Source of the DNA: Myxococcus sp. RHSTA-1-4
GTDB lineage: Bacteria > Myxococcota > Myxococcia > Myxococcales > Myxococcaceae
Assembly: GCF_020037125.1 (NCBI RefSeq)
Contig: NZ_JAIQDG010000010.1
Span: 124,001 to 188,000, forward strand
Length of the DNA: 64,000 bases
Direction of reading: 5' to 3'
Part shown: positions 24,295-46,338 of the stretch, one piece after another
How the letters are laid out: the number at the start of each line of letters is the position of its first letter
Numbering within the stretch: position 1 is the first letter of the stretch
Notes under the pieces: generated by a model
Told to the model about the DNA's origin: nothing
The model's database searches: none
Seen by the model: only the letters and a program-made list of their open reading frames with translations
Position numbers and translations under genes: made by a program

Positions 24295-25334
24295 GCACGG
24301 GCACGCGAGAGGTGGCCGTGGTGGCGGTGGGGGCCTGCACGCCGGTGGGGCTGACGGCGGCGGTGACACGGGCGGAGCGGGCGGCGGGGACGCCGGGCTT
24401 CACCCGGACGGAGGTGCGGGGCGAGGACGGGGAGTCGGTGCGGGCCGCGCGGCTGAGGTTGCTGGAGGCCTGGCTGTCGCGCACTCAGCGCATGGCGGCG
24501 CTGGGGGCGACGGCGCTGGAGGACTGCCTGGCGGCGGTGAAGGGGCGGTGGGCGGACAGCCGGCTGCCGTTGGTGCTGGTGCTGCCGGAGGACGGGCTGG
24601 GCGCCCCGTGGGAGGAGACGGCGCTGAGGGAGGCGCTGGAGGCGGAGGCCCGGCCGGCGCGGCTGGAGTGGGAGGAGGGCCCCTGGAGGGCGGGCCGCGC
24701 GGGCCTCTTCGCGGCGCTGGCGCATGCGCGGCGGGTGCTGCGCGAGGGCCGGGCGCCGTGGGTGCTGGTGGGCGGAGTGGACTCGCTGGGTGACGGGCTG
24801 TCTCTGCGGCGGCTGGTGGAGACGGGCCGGTGCCTCAGCGGTGGGCGCGGGGAGGGGCTGATTCCGGGCGAGGGCGCGGGCTTCCTGCTGCTGGCGCGGG
24901 CGGAGGAGGCGCGGCGCGCGAGGCTGGAGGTGGCCGGGTGGGTGCTGGCGGAGGCGCACGGCCAGGAGGCGCGGCACTTCCGGCAGGAGGCGCCCGGCCG
25001 GGCCGAGGCGCTGACGGAGGTCTTTCGCCAGTTGCGGTGGCACCCGGGCGTGGAGGGACGGCGGGTGGACGTGGTGCTGTCCTGCCAGACGGGGGAAGGG
25101 TACTGGGCGCGGGAGTTCGGCCAGGCGTACCTGCGCAACGCGGAGCTGTTTCCGGAGCCGCTGGTGGTGCGTGAGGTGGCCGAGGGCCTGGGCGACGTGG
25201 GCGCGGCGGCGGGCGCGCTGCAGGTGGCCCAGGGGCTGTACCTGCTGCGCAAGCAGGGCGGAGGGCGAGGGCTGGTGTACGGCGACGCGGACGGGGGCGT
25301 GGTGGGGGCCTGTGTCCTGGAGGTGGCGTCATGA
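24291..25334 (+). CDS. beta-ketoacyl-synthase (thiolase-fold) homologue, T6SS-associated, probably inactive
   Basis: A 347-residue thiolase-fold protein. Recognisable KAS features: N-terminal VVAVGACTPVGLTAAVTR, the second-strand region APWVLVGGVDSLGDGLSL, and GEGLIPGEGAGFLLLARAEE, typical of KAS II-like proteins. The nucleophile elbow, normally TACASG, reads PWRAGRAGLFAALAHA with no Cys, and the HGTGT motif is replaced by SCQTGEGYW. A condensing activity is therefore unlikely. Such KAS-like genes accompany DUF2169 and PAAR-like genes in some T6SS effector loci, where the role is unknown. Overlaps of 4 bp with both neighbours show translational coupling. Confidence 0.75.
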   Translation: MSTGTREVAVVAVGACTPVGLTAAVTRAERAAGTPGFTRTEVRGEDGESVRAARLRLLEAWLSRTQRMAALGATALEDCLAAVKGRWADSRLPLVLVLPEDGLGAPWEETALREALEAEARPARLEWEEGPWRAGRAGLFAALAHARRVLREGRAPWVLVGGVDSLGDGLSLRRLVETGRCLSGGRGEGLIPGEGAGFLLLARAEEARRARLEVAGWVLAEAHGQEARHFRQEAPGRAEALTEVFRQLRWHPGVEGRRVDVVLSCQTGEGYWAREFGQAYLRNAELFPEPLVVREVAEGLGDVGAAAGALQVAQGLYLLRKQGGGRGLVYGDADGGVVGACVLEVAS

Positions 25335-26380
25335 CGACGACGTATGCGAATGGCCGCTCCGTGCTGCACGCGGGGGACGGGAATACCCAGACGGCGGCGG
25401 CGCCGGACGTGTGCAAGACGCCCTCTCCCGGCGGCCCGGTGCCGGTGCCCTACGGGAATGTGGCCAGGGACAGCGATTTGGCCGAGGGCAGCACCTCCGT
25501 GGAGATTGACGGCCACCCGGTGGCACTCAAGGGCAGCTACTTGAGCACCAGTACCGGGGACGAGGCGGGGACGGCGGGTGGAGGACTCGTTTCGTCGAAG
25601 ATTCAGGGACGGGTGGTGTTCCTCACCGCGAGCCTGGACGTGTTGGTGGAGGGCCAGGGCGTGGTGCGGTTCCTGGATACCTTCCTGGCCAACGCCAATA
25701 CCGGCAACACCCTGGGGTTGGTGTACGGCGACCCGCTGGTGGTGCCGAAGGGGAGGGATGGGGAGGAGCCCACATGCGACGCCTGCGGGAAGCCCTTCTC
25801 CGAGCACCCACCGGGCCTGGAGTCCTCCGAGGAGGTGCGCAAGGAGATGCGGCTGCTCGTCCGCGGGCACCAGGCTTCCTTCAAGCAGGCGGTGGTGGAG
25901 AGAGAGAACAAGGGCTTCATGCTGGGGGTGCTCAAGTGCCGGACGCGGGATGGGCGGACCGTCCACCTCCGGGCCATGTCGGGCATGTTCGATAAAGAAC
26001 TCGGCATCGCTCTCGACCCTACCTTTGAGGTGGGACCGAAGATTGATGGGGCGAAGCTCAACAAGGCGATGAAGATTCAGGAGCAGCGGCTCGCCGAAAG
26101 ACCCAGGCATGGCTTCCGCATGAAGAGCTTGAAGGGCGAGAACCCGAACGCCAACCCGCCGGGCAACTGCGCGGCACCGAGGCTGCTGTTGTACGCGATG
26201 GACCGGGGGTGGGAGCCGGTGGAGATGGTGGAGCAGTGGTTTGGCCCCGCCACGGAAGCGAAGGAGCACGGGCAGGAGTACCCGCCGTGCGAGACGTGCA
26301 GGAGGCTGGTGCCGGTGCTGCTGTGCGAGGCGCGGGAGCGGGCCAGGAACGAACCCACCCACGAGGAAGGGCAGGTGTGA
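25331..26380 (+). CDS. PAAR-like (DUF4150) protein with C-terminal deaminase-like toxin domain
   Basis: A 349-residue specialised T6SS effector. Residues 1-135 are the DUF4150 PAAR-like spike tip (CKTPSPGGPVPVPYGN, STSTGDEAGTAGGGLVSSKI, LDTFLANANTGNT). A CxxC finger (CDACGKPF) and linker follow. The C-terminal domain (about 205-349) has GNCAAPRLL (C280) and PPCETCRR (C320, C323), the zinc-ligand pattern of bacterial toxin deaminases with Cys in place of His. The Glu of the usual CAE motif is Ala282, so deamination is uncertain. The next gene is a SUKH immunity protein, a common partner of such toxins. The ATG overlaps the preceding stop by 4 bp. Confidence 0.82.
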   Translation: MTTTYANGRSVLHAGDGNTQTAAAPDVCKTPSPGGPVPVPYGNVARDSDLAEGSTSVEIDGHPVALKGSYLSTSTGDEAGTAGGGLVSSKIQGRVVFLTASLDVLVEGQGVVRFLDTFLANANTGNTLGLVYGDPLVVPKGRDGEEPTCDACGKPFSEHPPGLESSEEVRKEMRLLVRGHQASFKQAVVERENKGFMLGVLKCRTRDGRTVHLRAMSGMFDKELGIALDPTFEVGPKIDGAKLNKAMKIQEQRLAERPRHGFRMKSLKGENPNANPPGNCAAPRLLLYAMDRGWEPVEMVEQWFGPATEAKEHGQEYPPCETCRRLVPVLLCEARERARNEPTHEEGQV

Positions 26381-37682: not shown

Positions 37683-37810
37683 GGTGCCTCCCATGTACCG
37701 CATCCCTGGCGGGCGCAGGTGGCGCGGTGGGAGGCAATGCCGGGCACTGGAAGTTGGAGGCCGCGAGCCGGCGCCGCGAGCCGGGGAGGATGGGCTAGGC
37801 TGCACGCTCC

Positions 37811-38920
37811 ATGCGCCGTGCCGCCGCCGTCGCCTTCCTGGCGCTTCTCCCCCTGTCCTGCCGTGAAGAGCGGCTCGTCCCGTCCCTGCCTCCGGGCTTC
37901 CACGTGGACACGTATGCCCAGCGCTCCGCCTCGGCGGTGGACGTGCTGTGGGTGGTGGACGATTCGGGCTCCATGGCGCCGCGGCAGGAGGCGCTCGCGC
38001 GCAACTTCCAGGCGTTCATCTCGCTGTTCCGCGAGGGGCGCATCGACTTCCGGATGGGCGTGGCGACGACGGACATCTTCACGCGTCCGGGGGAGCTGGT
38101 GGGCGAGCCGCGAATCCTGACGCCCGGCACGCCGGACCTGGAGCGGGCGTTCGGGAACAGCGTGAGGGTGGGCACGCAGGGCAGCGCGTACGAAGCGGGG
38201 CTGGAGGCTGCGAGCCGGGTGCTGGAGCGCCAGGCTCGGGAGAACGCGCCGGTGCTGGAGGCGCGGGCGGCGTGCGAGTCCGGCTGCTCCACGGAGGCGT
38301 GCCGTCAGGACTGCGCGGCGGCGCACCCGGTGGCCTTCCTGCGCCCCGAGGCGTGGCTGTATCTGGCCTTCGTGACGGACGAGGATGACCGCTCTCCGTA
38401 CGAGGTGCGCACGTACTGGCGCGCGTTCGAGCAGGTGAAGGGGATTGGAAATGATGGGACGGTGGTGGCGTCGGCCATCATCGGGGACGTGCCGGCGAAC
38501 GGCTGTGGCGCGGAGCCGGGGACGCGGTATGCGGAGCTCGTGACGCTCACGGGCGGTGAGCTGGGGAGCATCTGCGACGCGGACTTCGCGGACACGCTGC
38601 GCACGCTGGCGACGAGCGCGGTGGGACTGCGGCGCACGTTCGCGCTGGAGCAGCCGCCCAGGCCGGACTCGCTCCGGGTGCGCGTGCGCTATCCCTGCGG
38701 CACGGCCGAGGAGTCAATGCGCGGCTGCGAAGCCGTGGACCGCACGGCCTGCGAGGGCCAGCCGGCGGAGGCGCTGGACGTGGTGTGCACGCCGGTGCGG
38801 GGAGGGCCCGATGGGTGGACCTATGAGCCGGCGCGGCGCGGGGTCTACTTCGCGGGTGACTCCGTCCCCGGGCTCGGCGCGCGGGTGGAGCTGGAGTACG
38901 TGGAGGAGGGCGCGTCGTGA
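37811..38920 (+). CDS. VWA-domain lipoprotein (gene 1 of lipoprotein operon)
   Basis: A 369-residue lipoprotein. Lipobox LPLSC (C17), then a von Willebrand A domain (about 43-280) with the metal-adhesion motif DDSGSM (D50, S52, S54), VATTDIF and FVTDEDDRSPYE supplying the later metal ligands. Several cysteines (CESGCSTEACRQDC) suggest disulfides in an insert. A short C-terminal beta domain follows. Such proteins bind ligands through Mg2+ and act in adhesion or complex assembly. The stop overlaps the next start (GTGA), the first of four tight junctions in this operon. The order VWA, ASH/PKD, Cys-rich/PPC, TIG, Cys-rich suggests one surface complex. Confidence 0.85.
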   Translation: MRRAAAVAFLALLPLSCREERLVPSLPPGFHVDTYAQRSASAVDVLWVVDDSGSMAPRQEALARNFQAFISLFREGRIDFRMGVATTDIFTRPGELVGEPRILTPGTPDLERAFGNSVRVGTQGSAYEAGLEAASRVLERQARENAPVLEARAACESGCSTEACRQDCAAAHPVAFLRPEAWLYLAFVTDEDDRSPYEVRTYWRAFEQVKGIGNDGTVVASAIIGDVPANGCGAEPGTRYAELVTLTGGELGSICDADFADTLRTLATSAVGLRRTFALEQPPRPDSLRVRVRYPCGTAEESMRGCEAVDRTACEGQPAEALDVVCTPVRGGPDGWTYEPARRGVYFAGDSVPGLGARVELEYVEEGAS

Positions 38921-40392
38921 GTCGTCGTGTCACGTCTTCCCGCGCGCCCGTGCGTCCCGGTGTCCTCCTTCTCTCGCTCCTCTGTCTCATCGGTGCCGCC
39001 TGTGGTGGTGACGGGCCTCCGCGCCCGGTGCTTCCCCGCTGGGTCGTTCCGGAGCCGGCGCTCGACTTCGGACCGGTGCCCGCGCTCAACGAGCGCACGG
39101 TGTCACTGCTGCTGGTGAACGCGGGGCGCGCGCCACTGCGGGTCCTCGGAGTCGCCGTGCGCGGAATGGAAGTTCCATTCCGCGTGGTCGCCGCGCCGGA
39201 CGAGGTCGCCGCGCAGAGTGAGGCCCCCGTGAGGCTGGCCTTCGTCCCACCACGAGAGGCGGCCTACACGGCGACGCTGGAGCTGCACACGGATGACCCG
39301 GAGCACGGCACGGTGGAGGTGTCCCTCCGGGGAGAAGGGCGCACGGCGGCGGTCATCGAGGTGGAGCCCGAGCAGCTCGACTTCGGCCGGGTGGCGGAGG
39401 GGAGCGCGGCGGTGCGGACCTTCACCGTGCGCTCGCGAGGCAGCGCGCCCCTGGTGCTGGAGGAGCTCGGCCTCGCGAGCGGGACGCCCGCCACCTTCGA
39501 GCTGGTGGGCTCCACGCGAACGCCCGCGGTGCTGGACGTAGGAGGTGAGGTCCAGCTCACGGTGCGTTATTCGGCCCCCCTGGGAGCGCCGCCGGAGGCC
39601 GCGAGCGGCACCCTTCGCCTGCGGACCACGGACCCCGGGCACCGCGAGGCCACGGTTGCCCTGCGTGCGTGGGGGAACCGCGCGCCCATGTCCATCGTGA
39701 CGGCACCTGGGGAGAGCGTGCCGGGAGCCGAGGTGGTGCTCGACGGAGCCGGCTCGGTGGACCCGGATGGGGATACGCCGCTCACGTACCAGTGGGTGCT
39801 GCGCGAGCGGCCCGTGGGAGCACAGGCGAGCCTCTCCCAGCCGGGAGCAGCGAGCACGATGCTGCGCCTGGACCCGGTGGTGCCGGGGGCGTACGAGGTG
39901 GAGCTGCACGTGACGGATGCGGCGGGGGCTCGGAGTCTCCAGCCCGCTCGCGCGCGCGTGGTGGCGGTGCCCGCGCAGCGGTTGCTGGTGGAGGTGTCGT
40001 GGAACAACGCGGTGACGGACCTGGACCTGCACGTGCTGCGCGGCACGGACGTGGTGCCAGGCTCCGTGCCGGAGGACTGCCACTACGCGAACCCGCGTCC
40101 GGACTGGGGCGCTCCCGGCCCGGAGGAAGACCCGGAGCTGTTGCGAGACCGGCTGACGGGATACGGGCCGGAGGTGTTCGGCTACGAGAGCCCCGCGCCG
40201 GGGACGTACCGGGTGGCGGTGGTGCTGGCCCGGGAGAATGGGGCGGTGGACCCGCGCAGCGAGGCCACGGTGCGCGTGTACGACCGGGGCGTGTTGAAGG
40301 GCGAGTACCGCCGCACACTGGCGAAGCAGGGCGACGTATGGGCGGTGGCGGACGTGCAGTGGCCGGCGGGCATCGTCACGGAGGTGCCGTGA
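38917..40392 (+). CDS. lipoprotein with ASH-like (choice-of-anchor D), PKD and DUF2135-like domains (gene 2)
   Basis: A 491-residue lipoprotein. Lipobox GAACG, then two ASH/HYDIN-type beta domains (about 45-145, PALDFGPVPALNERTVSLLL; 145-250, LDFGRVAEGSAAVRTFTVRS), a PKD-like domain (about 255-350, LDGAGSVDPDGDTPLTYQWV) and a C-terminal YfaP/DUF2135-like domain (NNAVTDLDLHVLRGTDVVPG; TGYGPEVFGYESPAPGTYRV). All are extracellular beta modules without catalytic motifs. The GTG start overlaps the previous stop by 4 bp; the next ATG overlaps its own stop by 1 bp (TGATG). Confidence 0.84.
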   Translation: MSRRVTSSRAPVRPGVLLLSLLCLIGAACGGDGPPRPVLPRWVVPEPALDFGPVPALNERTVSLLLVNAGRAPLRVLGVAVRGMEVPFRVVAAPDEVAAQSEAPVRLAFVPPREAAYTATLELHTDDPEHGTVEVSLRGEGRTAAVIEVEPEQLDFGRVAEGSAAVRTFTVRSRGSAPLVLEELGLASGTPATFELVGSTRTPAVLDVGGEVQLTVRYSAPLGAPPEAASGTLRLRTTDPGHREATVALRAWGNRAPMSIVTAPGESVPGAEVVLDGAGSVDPDGDTPLTYQWVLRERPVGAQASLSQPGAASTMLRLDPVVPGAYEVELHVTDAAGARSLQPARARVVAVPAQRLLVEVSWNNAVTDLDLHVLRGTDVVPGSVPEDCHYANPRPDWGAPGPEEDPELLRDRLTGYGPEVFGYESPAPGTYRVAVVLARENGAVDPRSEATVRVYDRGVLKGEYRRTLAKQGDVWAVADVQWPAGIVTEVP

Positions 40393-41882
40393 TGCCGCCC
40401 ACCTCCTGCCTCGCCCGAGGCCTGCGCGTCCTGCTCGTGACGGCTCTCCTTGCCGCCTGCTCATCGGAGCCCGCGAAGCCCGTGCCCGACGCGGGGCCCA
40501 GGGCGACCGCCTGCGAGCACCGCGAGGACTGCGAGGGAGGCCAGGTCTGCGGCGCGGAGGGCTTCTGCGGCCCCTGCGAGTCCAGCGGCCAGTGCCGGCT
40601 CAAGGAACACTGTGAGGTGGAGTCGCGCGTCTGCACCCTGCGCGACGGATGGGGCGCCGACTGCACGGCCAGCACGGACTGCGCGCTGGGCATGTGGTGC
40701 CGCCAGGGACTCTGCCGGGCCCGGCCGGACGTGGTCCTCTGCCCTTCGGGGACGCGGGCCGAATGTCCCTCGGGCCAGCGTTGCAACGGGGTGAGCCTCG
40801 TGTGCGAGGAGGACCTGGGCTGCGCCGAGGACGCGGACTGTGGCGCGGAGGAGCGCTGCAACACCGGGCTCCACGCCTGCGTCCCCCGCTGCACCGAAGC
40901 CACGGCCTCCCGGGTCTGCGCGTCCGGCGAGCGCTGCGCGGACGGCCGGTGCGTTCAGTGCGAGGCGGATGCGGAGTGCGGCCCGGGGCTCCTCTGTGAC
41001 GCCGCGGGGCGCTGCGCGGCGACACCGCGTTGCTACTCGGACCGGGACTGCGCGGTGCCCCTGCTGTGCCACGTGCCGAGCGGAGCGTGCCTGCCGCGGC
41101 CTCCGCCGTGTACCTCGGATGATGGCTGTGCCGCGGACCAGCGATGTGACGTGGGCACCGGGACGTGTGTGCCGAGGGCCTGTCAGCCGGACACGCTGGA
41201 GCCCAACGACACGGCCGCCACCGCGTATGCGGTGAGCGCGAGCCGCTATCCGGGGCTCACCCTCTGCCCGGACGACGCGGACCACTTCTCCATCTCACTG
41301 GAGCGCGGCGACCAGCTCGGGGTGAACGTGGAAGCGGACGCCTTCGCGGAGCCCGCGTTCTCCACCTCGATTCAGGACGCGAGCGGCAGGGTGCTCGCAT
41401 CGGGACGCTTCCTGGCAACCCATGTCGCCGCGGTGCCCGGCACCTATACCGTGCGCATCGCCGCGCGAGGGAGCGAGCCTCGCGCCTACGACGTCGGCTT
41501 CTTCCTCTCGCGGGGAACGCCTTGTGACGACGACCTCCACGAGCCCAACGACACCCCGGGCACGGCGAAGGCGCTGTCGGAGGGCACTCCCGTGGAGGGG
41601 ATGCTCTGCCCACGGGACCAGGACTACTTCCGGCTCACGGTGCCGGAGGGGAGGGGTGTGCGCGTATCGCTGTCGCATTACATCGCCGCGAATGGCCTGC
41701 TGCGCCTGTGTCTGCTCGGCGCGGATGCAAGCTCGGAGCTGGGATGCTCCACCGAGCCCACGGGGGCGGTGGTCTCACTTCCCGCATCTGTCGCTGGGGG
41801 ACGGGCGCTCACCGTGCGAGTCACCGGAGATGATGCCCGAGCGGTGAATGGCTACACGCTCCAGGGGGAGTTGCTGCCATGA
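40392..41882 (+). CDS. Cys-rich lipoprotein with two PPC-like domains (gene 3)
   Basis: A 496-residue lipoprotein. Lipobox LLAACS, then a Cys-rich stalk (about 35-265) made of short repeats such as CEHREDCEGGQVCGAEGFC and CEADAECGPGLLCDAAGRC, the same style as in TraA at 17090-19297. After it come two PPC-type beta domains, each opened by EPNDT (LEPNDTAATAYAVSASRYPG; HEPNDTPGTAKALSEGTPV). The PPC family is often on secreted peptidases, but no peptidase is here. Coupled to gene 2 by a 1-bp overlap and to gene 4 by ATGA. Confidence 0.83.
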   Translation: MPPTSCLARGLRVLLVTALLAACSSEPAKPVPDAGPRATACEHREDCEGGQVCGAEGFCGPCESSGQCRLKEHCEVESRVCTLRDGWGADCTASTDCALGMWCRQGLCRARPDVVLCPSGTRAECPSGQRCNGVSLVCEEDLGCAEDADCGAEERCNTGLHACVPRCTEATASRVCASGERCADGRCVQCEADAECGPGLLCDAAGRCAATPRCYSDRDCAVPLLCHVPSGACLPRPPPCTSDDGCAADQRCDVGTGTCVPRACQPDTLEPNDTAATAYAVSASRYPGLTLCPDDADHFSISLERGDQLGVNVEADAFAEPAFSTSIQDASGRVLASGRFLATHVAAVPGTYTVRIAARGSEPRAYDVGFFLSRGTPCDDDLHEPNDTPGTAKALSEGTPVEGMLCPRDQDYFRLTVPEGRGVRVSLSHYIAANGLLRLCLLGADASSELGCSTEPTGAVVSLPASVAGGRALTVRVTGDDARAVNGYTLQGELLP

Positions 41883-41887
41883 GTCGC

Positions 41888-42030
41888 CTGGCCTCGGCCG
41901 TTCATCCTTCCGAAGGGCCATGCACTCCCGGCGGGACGGATGCCATGAATCACGGGCACCCGCTTCCGCGGCTGGCCACGGCCGTCCATCCTTCCGAAGG
42001 GCTGCGCGCTCCGAGCGGAGTCGCCGCCAT
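41888..42030 (+). repeat. 84-bp period duplication of a translation-start region
   Basis: Two copies of about 60 bp, beginning CTGGCC at 41888 and 41972, share ATCCTTCCGAAGGG and each ends in a purine-rich patch plus an in-frame ATG (41945 and 42029). In frame they repeat the peptide RLA(S/T)AVHPSEG. The duplication gives the TIG gene three possible starts (41879, 41945, 42029). Confidence 0.7.
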
Positions 42031-45000
42031 GTGCCCGGAGCGTCTGTCTTCTCGCCGCGGCGGCGTCCGGCCGTGCGCGTGGCCCCTCCTCCTCGTGTTG
42101 CTCGCCGTCCTACCCACGCTCATCGCCTGCGGAAACACCCCGCGTCCGCCAGGAGCTCCGTCCGACGCCGGCCTCACCGACGCGGGGACAGGAGAGGACG
42201 CGGGCACGAACCCGGACGCGGGCACCCTCGGAGACGCCGGCTCACTCCAGCCTCCGGCCCTCCTTTCAGCCCTCCCGTCGAGAGGTGAGAGCGGAGGCGG
42301 AACCTGGGTGAGGCTGAAGGGCAGCGGCTTCCTCCAGGGCGTGGCCACGACGGCCACGGAGGCCGCCAGGCGCACGGTGCTGAAGGTGGGGGGACGTGAC
42401 GTGCGGGACGTCCAGATCATCGGCGACACCGAGCTGGACCTGCGCACTCCACCGGGAACGGCGGGGCCCGCGAGCATCACCCTGGAGAACCCGCGAGGCC
42501 TGGCCACCTGCGAGGACTGCTTCACGTACGTCGACACCTTCGACCTGCTCGGCCTCTCGCCGGCAACGGGAGCCCTCTCCGGCGGCAACACGGTGACGTT
42601 GGTGGGCACGGGCTTTCCATCCGCCCCCGGCCTCCAGGTCCTCTTCGGGAGCACGGCGAGCCCCGCCGTCACACGTATCTCCTCCACCGAGCTTCGCGCC
42701 GTGGTGCCCCGGGGACGCAGCGCGGAGCCCGTGGACGTGAGGGTCCACGGGCAGGGGAGTGGAGGCGTGCTCCGGCGCGCATACCGCTACATCGAGGACA
42801 CGCGAGTCGCGGACCTCACTCCGCTCACGGGGCCTCAATCCGGAGGCACGCAGGTGGTGCTCACCGGTCAAGGCTTCGAGGGCACGGCCTCGGTCCTCTT
42901 CGGAGGCACGCCCGCGCCCATGTTCCAGGTGGACGCCCCCTCACGAATCACGGTGACGGCGCCACCCGGCCCGGGCCCGGGTGCCGTGGACGTACGAGTC
43001 ATCACCCCGCGAGGTACGTGGACGGTCCGCAACGGCTTCACCTACGAGGATGCGCAGGGTGGCCCCTTCACGCTGCACGGCGTCTTCCCGCACGTGGGCG
43101 CGAGGGAGGACGGAACGGTGACCCTCACGGGCAGCGGTCTGGATGCTCCCGGGCTCGTGGTCTCCTTCGGAGGCACTCCGGCCTCGCTCCTCGCCGCCAC
43201 ACCCACCACCGCCACCGTCACCGTGCCCGCGCGAGGCAACCTGCCACGCACTGTCCCCGTGAGCGCCACGGCCGGCACCGCGAGCGCGAGCCTCCCGGAG
43301 GGCTACACCTTCCGCCTCACGCTCTCCCGGCTCACGCCTGAGGCGGGCCCCTCCACCGGAGGCACTCCGGCCGTGCTCGAGGGAGAGTCCCTGCCGCCAG
43401 ACGCGGTGGTGCGAGTGGGCGCGCTCGAAGCCACGGTGACGGCGGCGCCCACGGAATCGCGGCTCCACTTCACCACGCCACCAGGAGGCGCGGGCCCGCA
43501 CTCCCTCCACGTTGCCTCCGCGAGCGACCCGGAGGACGAGGTGCTCCTCCCTGAGGCCTTCACCTACGAGGCTCCGCTCATGCTCGCCCAGGTGGAGCCC
43601 GCACGAGGGGCCATCGCGGGAGGCACGCGGGTGACGGTACGAGGCGCCGGCTTCGTCGAAGGCACCACCGTCACATTCGGAGGTGAGCCCGCGACGGACG
43701 TGCAGGTGCTGGACGCCCACACCCTGGCCTGCCGTACGCCCGCTTCCCGCACGCAAGGCCCGGTGGACGCCGCCGTCGCACTCGGAGCCACCACCGCCAC
43801 GCTCCCCGAACTCTTCACGTACTTCGACCCTCGGGGCCCGGGAGGACTCTCCGGCGCACCGCTCACGGGGACGCTGAACGTGACGGTGCTCGACACCTCG
43901 TCCGGGGCGTACGGGCAGCCGGTGCCGGGCGCGAGGGTGATGCTCGGCACGGACCCGGCGACGCCGCTCCAGGGGCTCACGGACGAGCGAGGCCAGCTCA
44001 CGCTCTCGGACGCGCGGATGGTGGGGGCGCAGGTGGCCACGGCCTTCAAGGAGGGCTACGACGCGGTGACGGTGGCGGGCATCCGCGCGGAGAACCTGAC
44101 GGTGTACCTGCGCAAGCTCGGCAGCGACGGAGACCCGGGCAACCCGCCCGAGCCTCCACGCGCCGCCATCTCCGGACGCGTGCGGGGCTTCAAGCCCCCG
44201 CGTCCCCTCGGCCCGGGAGAGGTGCTGGAGGCGCGAGTCTTCGTGGCACAGCCGAGTCCGGCCTCGGGTCCTCCCTTCGCCGGCCCCGGTGACAGGCGGG
44301 CGGACACGTGGCGGGTGCGCGAGGAAGGCGGCACATACCGCGTCCACACCCAACCCGGAGTCCGCGCGGTGTACGCGGTGCTGGGCGTGCTGAAGGACGA
44401 GACGGACTTCGCGCCCTACCTGCTCGGCATCCGCCGTGGCATCGCGGCCTCGTCCACGCGCGTCGCGGAGGGACAGGACGTGGTGCTCGACATGCATCTG
44501 GACGTCACCGCGCCACTCTCCGTGGAGGGCCCCATCACCGTGGGGGGACAGCCCGCGCTGCACCAGGTGTACGCCTGGCTGGACCTGGGCGCGGAGGGGC
44601 TGGTGCCACACCCGCACAACTGGGGCACGGGCACGCGCTTCTTCTCCACCATCGAAGGCCCGGGGCCGAGCCTCACCTTCCCCGGCCTGCCACGGGTGGA
44701 CGGCGCGAGCCTCCTGTTCCTCGACCTGCTGCGAGGCACCACCACGTATCCGCAGGGCCTGCTCTACCATCGCCAGCCCGGGGACCTCGGGGCGGGCCTG
44801 ACGCTCGGGCCCATGCTGCCGCTGCCCGTCTTCACCGAGCCCGCCTCAGGGAGCCGCTTCGCCGGAGTGGTGGCCTGGAACCCGGGAGCCTCCATCGCCG
44901 TGCCGGACGTGCAGCAGCTCACGCTGGTGGCGCTGGGCGAAGCCCCCGGCATCCGTTGGACGGCCATCCTGCCCGGAGGAGAAACGCGGGTGACGCTGCC

Positions 45001-45175
45001 GGCGCCCGCGCTGGAGGTGCTGCGCGCCGGGCTGCCCGAGGGCACGCGCCTGCGAGCCGACCTCTCCACGGCGCGGGTGCCCCGCTTCGATTACGCGCAG
45101 TGGGCGTACGACACGCTGTCGCCCGCGGCGTGGACGGCCTACGTGCTGGGCCGCTCGGAGGTCTTCGACCCGTGA
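42029..45175 (+). CDS. lipoprotein with multiple IPT/TIG domains (gene 4)
   Basis: A 1048-residue surface lipoprotein. Signal and lipobox LPTLIACG, an Asp/Ala/Gly linker, then about six IPT/TIG immunoglobulin-like domains (residues about 80-610), each with a GGT/GGN turn and a GxGF strand (SGGNTVTLVGTGFPSAPGLQ; SGGTQVVLTGQGFEGTASVL). A carboxypeptidase-regulatory-like domain follows (GQPVPGARVMLGTDPATPLQ) and then beta regions of unknown type. ATG 42029 was chosen because GGAG precedes it and the signal peptide begins at once; the in-frame ATG at 41879, overlapping the previous stop, would put 50 repeated residues before the signal peptide. GTGA overlap with gene 5. Confidence 0.8.
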   Translation: MCPERLSSRRGGVRPCAWPLLLVLLAVLPTLIACGNTPRPPGAPSDAGLTDAGTGEDAGTNPDAGTLGDAGSLQPPALLSALPSRGESGGGTWVRLKGSGFLQGVATTATEAARRTVLKVGGRDVRDVQIIGDTELDLRTPPGTAGPASITLENPRGLATCEDCFTYVDTFDLLGLSPATGALSGGNTVTLVGTGFPSAPGLQVLFGSTASPAVTRISSTELRAVVPRGRSAEPVDVRVHGQGSGGVLRRAYRYIEDTRVADLTPLTGPQSGGTQVVLTGQGFEGTASVLFGGTPAPMFQVDAPSRITVTAPPGPGPGAVDVRVITPRGTWTVRNGFTYEDAQGGPFTLHGVFPHVGAREDGTVTLTGSGLDAPGLVVSFGGTPASLLAATPTTATVTVPARGNLPRTVPVSATAGTASASLPEGYTFRLTLSRLTPEAGPSTGGTPAVLEGESLPPDAVVRVGALEATVTAAPTESRLHFTTPPGGAGPHSLHVASASDPEDEVLLPEAFTYEAPLMLAQVEPARGAIAGGTRVTVRGAGFVEGTTVTFGGEPATDVQVLDAHTLACRTPASRTQGPVDAAVALGATTATLPELFTYFDPRGPGGLSGAPLTGTLNVTVLDTSSGAYGQPVPGARVMLGTDPATPLQGLTDERGQLTLSDARMVGAQVATAFKEGYDAVTVAGIRAENLTVYLRKLGSDGDPGNPPEPPRAAISGRVRGFKPPRPLGPGEVLEARVFVAQPSPASGPPFAGPGDRRADTWRVREEGGTYRVHTQPGVRAVYAVLGVLKDETDFAPYLLGIRRGIAASSTRVAEGQDVVLDMHLDVTAPLSVEGPITVGGQPALHQVYAWLDLGAEGLVPHPHNWGTGTRFFSTIEGPGPSLTFPGLPRVDGASLLFLDLLRGTTTYPQGLLYHRQPGDLGAGLTLGPMLPLPVFTEPASGSRFAGVVAWNPGASIAVPDVQQLTLVALGEAPGIRWTAILPGGETRVTLPAPALEVLRAGLPEGTRLRADLSTARVPRFDYAQWAYDTLSPAAWTAYVLGRSEVFDP

Positions 45176-46314
45176 ACCGCCACTGTCGCCATTCGTGGCT
45201 CCTCCCGCTGCTGCTCGTCCTCGCCGCCTGCCGGGAGGACCCGCCCGCGGGGACCACGGCCTGTGGCGCGGACTCGGACTGTGGCGCGCCGGCGGAGGCC
45301 TACCGCTGCGACACGGAGACGCGCGCGTGCCGCTGCCGCACGGACACGGCCTGCGGCCCGAGCGAGCTGTGCAACGCCGCGGGCTTCTGCCAGGACCGCG
45401 CGGGCTGTGAGTCGAACGCGGACTGTGGTGACGCCTCCCTCTTCTGCGACACGAGCACCGGCACCTGCCTGACACGAGGCCGCTGCACCACGGACCTGCA
45501 CTGCCCGCTGGGCGAGGTATGCGACGTCTCGCGCACCACCTGTGTGTCCGGCTGCCGGAGCGAGGGCGACTGCCCGGGCACGGCCTGCCGCTGCGCGGAC
45601 GCGCCCTGTCTCTGTGACGCCACCACCCCCGAGGGCCGCGCCGCCTGCGCGTTGGGCGTCTGTGACGCGTCCTTCTGCGCGGACGAACAGGACTGCGCCT
45701 TCGGCGAGCGCTGTGGCGCACCCACCACCGGCGCCCCACGGAGTTGCTACAGCGACTTCGACCCGGTGCGCCGCCCCTACTGCGCGAGCTGTACGTACGG
45801 CGGGGGCCTCCAGGTCTGCGGGCGAGGCGCGAACTTCTGCCTGCGTGAGAGCGCGAGCCCGGGCAGCGCGTACTGCGGCGTGGACTGCTCGGAGGGGCAG
45901 GGTTGCCCGAATGGCTACCAGTGCGCGGACGTGGTGGTGGCCTCGAGCCGTGCGCGCTGCCGCTCGGATGCGGAGTGCGCGCCGGTGCCCTCGTTGTCCT
46001 GCCGCGAGGACGCGGACTGCGGGCGCGGTGGGCGCTGCGTGAAGGAGCCGGGACAGGAGTCCGGCGCGTGCGCGGGCCGCTGCGCGGTGGAAGAGGGAGA
46101 CGTGGAGGGCTTCTGCACCTGCCAGCAGGACATGGACTGTGTGCAGGACGCGTGCAGTCAGGGCACGTGCACGGTGAGCCGCCGCGCCTGCGTGGGGGAT
46201 GCGGACTGCCGGCCCATCCGCTGCGTGGACTCCGGAGGGGTCCGCGGCTGCCTCGTGGGACAGAACTGCGCCCCCGGAGAGGGGCTGACCTGTGCGGAAG
46301 TCGTACCTCGCTAA
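45172..46314 (+). CDS. Cys-rich lipoprotein (gene 5 of operon)
   Basis: A 380-residue lipoprotein. Lipobox VLAACR, then almost the whole protein is Cys-rich repeats: CGADSDCGAPAEAYRCDTET, CESNADCGDASLFCDTSTG, CTTDLHCPLGEVCDVSRTTC, CREDADCGRGGRCVKEPG. It resembles the TraA stalk and gene 3 but has no sorting tail and no PPC domain. A rod-like disulfide-bonded spacer or binding protein is likely. The GTG start overlaps the previous stop. A weak terminator follows, so this is the last gene of the operon. Confidence 0.82.
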   Translation: MNRHCRHSWLLPLLLVLAACREDPPAGTTACGADSDCGAPAEAYRCDTETRACRCRTDTACGPSELCNAAGFCQDRAGCESNADCGDASLFCDTSTGTCLTRGRCTTDLHCPLGEVCDVSRTTCVSGCRSEGDCPGTACRCADAPCLCDATTPEGRAACALGVCDASFCADEQDCAFGERCGAPTTGAPRSCYSDFDPVRRPYCASCTYGGGLQVCGRGANFCLRESASPGSAYCGVDCSEGQGCPNGYQCADVVVASSRARCRSDAECAPVPSLSCREDADCGRGGRCVKEPGQESGACAGRCAVEEGDVEGFCTCQQDMDCVQDACSQGTCTVSRRACVGDADCRPIRCVDSGGVRGCLVGQNCAPGEGLTCAEVVPR

Positions 46315-46315
46315 A

Positions 46316-46338
46316 CCCGCCTGTTTCCGGGCCTTTTT
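46316..46338 (+). terminator. weak terminator of the five-lipoprotein operon
   Basis: CCCG / CGGG short stem with an 8-nt loop, immediately followed by CCTTTTTG, directly after the stop codon of the last lipoprotein gene. Confidence 0.4.

Follow-up and report, generated by a model that had tools for sequence, protein, structure and literature searches.

In the present work, we analysed a stretch of 64,000 nucleotides from Myxococcus sp. RHSTA-1-4 (hereafter the window; all the coordinates are window positions), focusing on five consecutive genes, here named A to E, each coding for a putative lipoprotein. The genome that harbors them is 11.2 Mb long, and the other genomes of the genus range from 9 to 13.5 Mb. 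The five open reading frames (ORFs) lie on the + strand in the order A-B-C-D-E and each of them overlaps the next gene, so that all four junctions (A/B GTGA, B/C TGATG, C/D ATGA, D/E GTGA) are exactly those reported in a preliminary description of this DNA. The five genes are the following:

37811..38920, + strand: gene A, lipoprotein with a metal-ion-dependent adhesion site (MIDAS) in a VWA domain, 369 residues
38917..40392, + strand: gene B, lipoprotein with two ASH/HYDIN-type Ig domains, a PKD domain and a conserved C-terminal domain, 491 residues
40392..41882, + strand: gene C, Cys-rich lipoprotein with a PPC-like region, 496 residues
41879..45175, + strand: gene D, six IPT/TIG domains followed by an FnIII/Ig-like beta C-terminal region
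45172..46314, + strand: gene E, Cys-rich lipoprotein, 380 residues

A lipoprotein signal is present at the start of all five products (that of D being doubtful), and the lipid cysteine is invariant among the aligned orthologs (A, C17, 22/22; B 23/23; C 21/21; D 18/18; E 19/19). The lipobox previously attributed to every product is therefore borne out by the invariant cysteine, with two reservations concerning the window proteins: the lipobox of A (PLSC) is atypical and the start of D is uncertain. The C-terminal Cys signal of the MYXO-CTERM (myxosortase) type was absent by eye from the five proteins, which end in EEGAS, TEVP, GELLP, EVFDP and EVVPR, respectively. None of the five matched an enzyme family, as anticipated in the preliminary description.

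We searched 61 genomes for orthologs of A and retrieved their neighbourhoods; moreover, profiles of all five proteins were run over 195 Myxococcota genomes. An intact set (the A-B-C-D-E order on one contig, counted by hand) was found in 45 of the 195 genomes, representing ten families. Eleven of these sets belong to the genus itself, 18 to the rest of the family, 11 to other families of the order, two to another order of the class (f10) and three to another class (f11; ORF and profile check), with order and strand kept in the distant sets at identities down to 31-38%. In the loci across the order, overlaps of -4 or -1 are kept at most junctions, and each of the five genes is under purifying selection (ratio of nonsynonymous to synonymous substitution rates, dN/dS, 0.22-0.33). 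These two observations, taken together, indicate that the arrangement is not due to chance. Partial sets are mostly cut by contig ends; real rearrangements were detected in two small-genome relatives, one with an inverted A (G054) and one in which ABC and DE lie apart (G050), while duplications concern D (a second copy in L058) and E (two copies in L062 and in several loci of class f11). The genes, whose possible scattering among relatives had been raised as an objection, are thus not scattered, and the splits observed in distant families are regular. We consider it well supported that the five genes form one conserved unit. The gene overlaps favour co-expression, without proving a fixed stoichiometry. 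No description of the five-gene set was found in the open-access literature.

A further locus (L036, G012:C76) carries a deletion joining C and D in a single frame of 908 residues, which retains the Cys-rich/PPC part, the last TIG and the C-terminal part; this fusion may be genuine or may stem from misassembly.

The split forms of distant families allow the unit to be dissected. In some of them at least one E-like gene follows A (L164, L165, L167, L168, L170, L172, L183-L186, L193), often with ATGA overlaps in L183-L186; in others B is followed by C (L163, L166, L169, L171), and D is either solitary (L175, L191, L194) or located ahead of E (L190). The two-gene A-E pairs (L183-L186, L193) possibly represent a minimal form of the system. 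As for the distribution of C and D in the 195 genomes, which are not phylogenetically independent, 72 harbor both genes, four only C, three only D, and 116 neither. The co-occurrence of C and D in spite of split loci is better evidence of a joint function than adjacency alone.

Concerning the A protein, its own Pfam match is below threshold (VWA_2, E=0.021). It matches the NCBIfam model of MIDAS family adhesins, NF052240, with 40.9 bits (E 1.4e-10), without reaching the curated cut-off of 700 bits, and this model weakly retrieves all 22 A orthologs (best E 1.2e-18). The similarity to CglD, a gliding lipoprotein of Myxococcus (NF033765), is more remote (28.8 bits, E 2.6e-7, curated cut-off 400; 21 of the 22 orthologs match). 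The AlphaFold model of A (22 orthologs; pLDDT 88) displays a VWA fold, so that the VWA domain originally proposed for A holds, despite the weak Pfam match, on the basis of NF052240 and of the modelled fold. In the secondary structure of the model, a beta segment (residues 30-36) precedes the VWA, which is followed by C-terminal strands up to residue 365; A is thus predicted to be a VWA inserted in a beta domain built from the N- and C-terminal segments. The MIDAS residues are the DxSxS motif (D50-S52-S54), T86 and D190, conserved in 21, 20, 19, 22 (T or S) and 22 of the 22 orthologs, respectively.

The same layout has been described for Bd0875 of Bdellovibrio: in addition to a lipobox, this protein has a small beta domain to which both ends of the chain contribute, and the MIDAS domain inserted into it is required for prey invasion to proceed correctly (PMC11003981). 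This layout, together with the conserved MIDAS residues, suggests that A most likely serves as a metal-dependent binding head. Among solved structures, the top Foldseek matches of modelled A are integrin beta heads (10-14% identity over a full-length alignment), and the SpaC pilus adhesin is also among the matches; profiles of A and E did not match any sequence of solved structures. Moreover, MIDAS motifs 2 and 3 of A are separated by a variable, Cys-bearing insertion (residues 140-178, approximately), which several families lack and which bears a loose resemblance to the Bd0875 cap; we report this as a lead only.

The B protein comprises a pair of ASH/HYDIN-type Ig domains and a PKD domain, and its C-terminal domain is conserved (DLDLH...GYGPE). 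The ASH and PKD assignments previously made for B were recovered; the likeness of its end to DUF2135 was weak (3 of the 23 orthologs, best E=0.0033). In C, 44 cysteines precede a PPC-like region: the Cys-rich character stands as first described, and PPC was matched by 13 of the 21 orthologs but not by the window protein. E contains, as expected, a high number of cysteines (56, with conserved spacing) and has no Pfam family; many cysteines of both C and E are conserved in relatives. The TIG array of D had been correctly recognized and comprises six domains (2.4e-56), whose closest counterparts among solved structures are the TIG arrays of plexin and MET. The whole of D is beta; its C-terminal region (up to 45175, from 43820) spans about 450 residues of FnIII/Ig-like modules. 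No specific function could be assigned to this region, since the only matches of its model were generic FnIII/Ig chains, at very low TM-scores. On the whole, the folds of B, C, D and E are of the binding or spacer kind, and no catalytic domain was found in them.

When D of the window is read from the ATGA overlap, about 80 residues precede the signal-peptide cysteine, while in its relatives the -4 start gives a normal signal peptide; the functional start in this genome may be the ATG at 42029, which is better placed for a signal peptide. The N-terminal part of the gene (41879-42140) contains an internal near-duplication (AVHPSEG...) that lengthens the stretch before the signal peptide, and a long N-terminal extension is likewise found in the D of L039.

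According to these data, the five genes probably encode one outer-membrane surface complex for adhesion or recognition; we infer the physical complex itself, its outward orientation, the roles of the subunits and the adhesive function. In this model, A would be the binding head, i.e., a lipid-anchored MIDAS/VWA in a small beta domain, binding its ligand through a metal ion. The adjacency retained in the split loci is consistent with a single complex having A-E and B-C as inner pairs: E would be the closest partner of A, and B and C would form a second pair. D, with its six TIG followed by fibronectin-like beta modules, would act as a long scaffold or stalk; each subunit would have its own lipid anchor, the disulfide-rich C and E would confer rigidity on the assembly outside the cytoplasm, and the overlapping genes would ensure that the subunits are co-produced. 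A prey cell, a kin cell or a substrate are the candidate targets. A contact between A and B is moderately hinted at by CglD-like proteins, in which ASH repeats resembling those of B and an A-type VWA are found in a single chain, although ASH is a generic module. Chains of this type, in which several ASH repeats accompany a single A-type VWA, occur in the host genome itself (L180 and L181, at C101 and C57) and in L195, where two are in tandem.

Several points weigh against this interpretation. The ASH, PKD, TIG and PPC domains are all generic modules. The whole A chain superposes poorly on integrins (TM about 0.4, rmsd, i.e., root-mean-square deviation, about 10 A), implying that the domain type is secure while the domain arrangement is not. 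The MIDAS motifs are degraded in four distant A orthologs (L060, L062, L063, L064); hence, metal-dependent binding is not universal. Lastly, the correlated divergence of the five genes was considered as evidence of contact and set aside, because shared ancestry explains the correlation.

In principle, the five products might also be separate envelope lipoproteins, co-regulated without forming any complex (for instance, a coat or a periplasm-facing layer). Co-regulation alone can conserve operons, and the sequence does not reveal how the proteins are oriented across the outer membrane; however, the co-occurrence of the genes survives their splitting into A-E, B-C and D loci, and an order shared by ten families with stable overlaps exceeds what is usual for mere co-regulation. 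We regard this scenario as rather unlikely.

A comparably low probability is assigned to an apparatus for prey contact during predation, similar to Bd0875, which would be a special case of the surface complex with the target specified. The match of all A orthologs to NF052240, the lipobox and inserted-VWA architecture common to A and Bd0875, the resemblance of the A insertion to the Bd0875 cap, loose as it is, and the affiliation of the carriers to a predator-rich phylum are in agreement with it. On the other hand, the score of A is far under the curated cut-off and, within the genus and the family, many genomes of presumed predators lack the set; in addition, Bd0875 is not described as requiring partners of the B-E type, and three other Bdellovibrio MIDAS proteins showed no prey phenotype (PMC11003981).

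A third scenario, less probable than the previous two, is an accessory role in gliding, in which A would adhere to the substrate in the manner of CglB or CglD, and B-E would link it to the outer-membrane Glt/Cgl complex. It finds some support in the remote similarity of A to CglD, in the ASH and VWA fusion of CglD-like proteins, and in CglB, itself a VWA gliding adhesin (PMC13104615, PMC12288465). The true CglD of the host genome is encoded elsewhere (G000:C46, 1965 bits). Over the 195 genomes, CglD exceeds the cut-off in 103 and D, taken as the marker of the five-gene set, is found in 75; 46 genomes have both, 57 only CglD, and 29 only the set. Within the genus, all 27 genomes possess CglD and 16 of them lack the set. 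The different distributions of CglD and the five-gene set disfavour a gliding role, and no motor or Glt gene was detected among the genes examined beside the locus.

We reconstructed the history of the site in the genus, where the block occurs in 11 of the 27 genomes and is absent from the other 16 (including all the genomes of 9.0-9.5 Mb, which lack orthologs); it is present or absent as a whole, and the flanks remain neighbours where they can be compared. In G020 (L196, G020:C4, near base 783010) the operon is missing and the flanks join within about 11 bases; the right-side alignment starts inside E, whose last 48 bases are retained, and the empty site still encodes the E C-terminus APAEGLTCVEVAPR. 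This remnant is the mark of a deletion scar. In G011 and G017 (L198, L199) about 2.2 kb of other genes occupy the slot between the same flanks, with aldo/keto reductase-like and LysR-like ORFs in G017. The MBL and downstream flank genes also border the operon in two other genera (L173, L200, L201). In the light of the scar and of these shared flanks, the preferred reading is that of a block ancestral at this position that has been lost repeatedly, rather than of a recent cassette. A horizontally mobile cargo block inserting at one site, which the patchy distribution and the clean presence or absence between conserved flanks might have suggested, is rejected as highly improbable on account of the G020 scar, the parts of the same flanks found in other genera and the absence of any integrase or transposase inside the block.

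The surroundings of the operon contain two further features:

37684..37810, no strand: divergent intergenic region ahead of A, between A and a methyltransferase on the - strand
46319..46332, + strand: terminator-like stem followed by CTTTTT, just 3' of E (consensus match only)

The methyltransferase starts near 37683, and no sigma-70-like site was found in the intergenic region. The terminator-like consensus was matched once, against 1.4 matches expected by chance. Genes for a small protein that looks exported and for two SDRs follow 3' of the operon. In another part of the window (25331-26380), an ORF read by eye looks PAAR-like (DUF4150), as in a type VI secretion region; it falls where the GC skew is strongest (0.267 at 24-26 kb).

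Returning to the surface complex, one can tentatively envisage an ancient, undescribed adhesion receptor of Myxococcota, consisting of five separately lipid-anchored subunits and repeatedly lost as a whole. It is conceivable, at a similarly cautious level, that such a receptor combines an integrin-beta-like A, a plexin-like D, an Ig/PKD-like B and the disulfide-rich C and E, that is, kinds of parts that are combined on animal receptor chains. If this were true, a predatory and social phylum would possess a testable and genetically compact system for contact or adhesion, and MIDAS adhesins would be shown to work with four dedicated lipoprotein partners. The absence of the set from the genomes of the genus that have the size of that of M. 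xanthus (9.0-9.5 Mb) may explain why the standard model never revealed it. Close relatives that naturally carry or lack the block, such as this genome and G020, permit a direct comparison.

The preliminary description had not matched the locus to any named system, and we reach the same conclusion; A remains under the cut-offs of both CglD and NF052240. Among the proteins nearest to A are Bd0875 and Bd1483 (NF052240, model length 378), with which it shares the lipobox and a VWA/MIDAS in a small beta domain made by the two termini, and to which it is homologous; they differ from it in being described as single adhesins (PMC11003981), whereas A is one of five coupled lipoproteins. CglD is, like A, a predicted outer-membrane lipoprotein with an A-type VWA, and unlike A it is one chain of about 1,100 residues. 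CglB, a VWA surface lipoprotein adhesin of gliding that works inside an outer-membrane complex (PMC12288465, PMC13104615), is a precedent showing that a VWA surface lipoprotein can act within an outer-membrane assembly. By description it is set apart from A by its partners, which are Glt proteins and not ASH/PKD, TIG or Cys-rich lipoproteins. Four VWA regions of the host genome (L176-L179) were also considered as CglB candidates; they gave no match to the A-E profiles and none was identifiable as CglB.

More distant likenesses concern the folds. SpaC-type pilus tip adhesins have, like A, an adhesive VWA/MIDAS head in a beta framework; their pili are covalent, Gram-positive, sortase-built structures lacking a lipobox. 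The integrin beta head, in which a VWA is inserted in a hybrid domain, and the plexin/MET chains provide the nearest solved folds for A and for the TIG array of D, respectively. These are analogies only, the folds being distant and the proteins of this locus being bacterial, separate, lipid-anchored subunits. What would be new here is the association of a known type of MIDAS lipoprotein adhesin with four dedicated lipoprotein partners.

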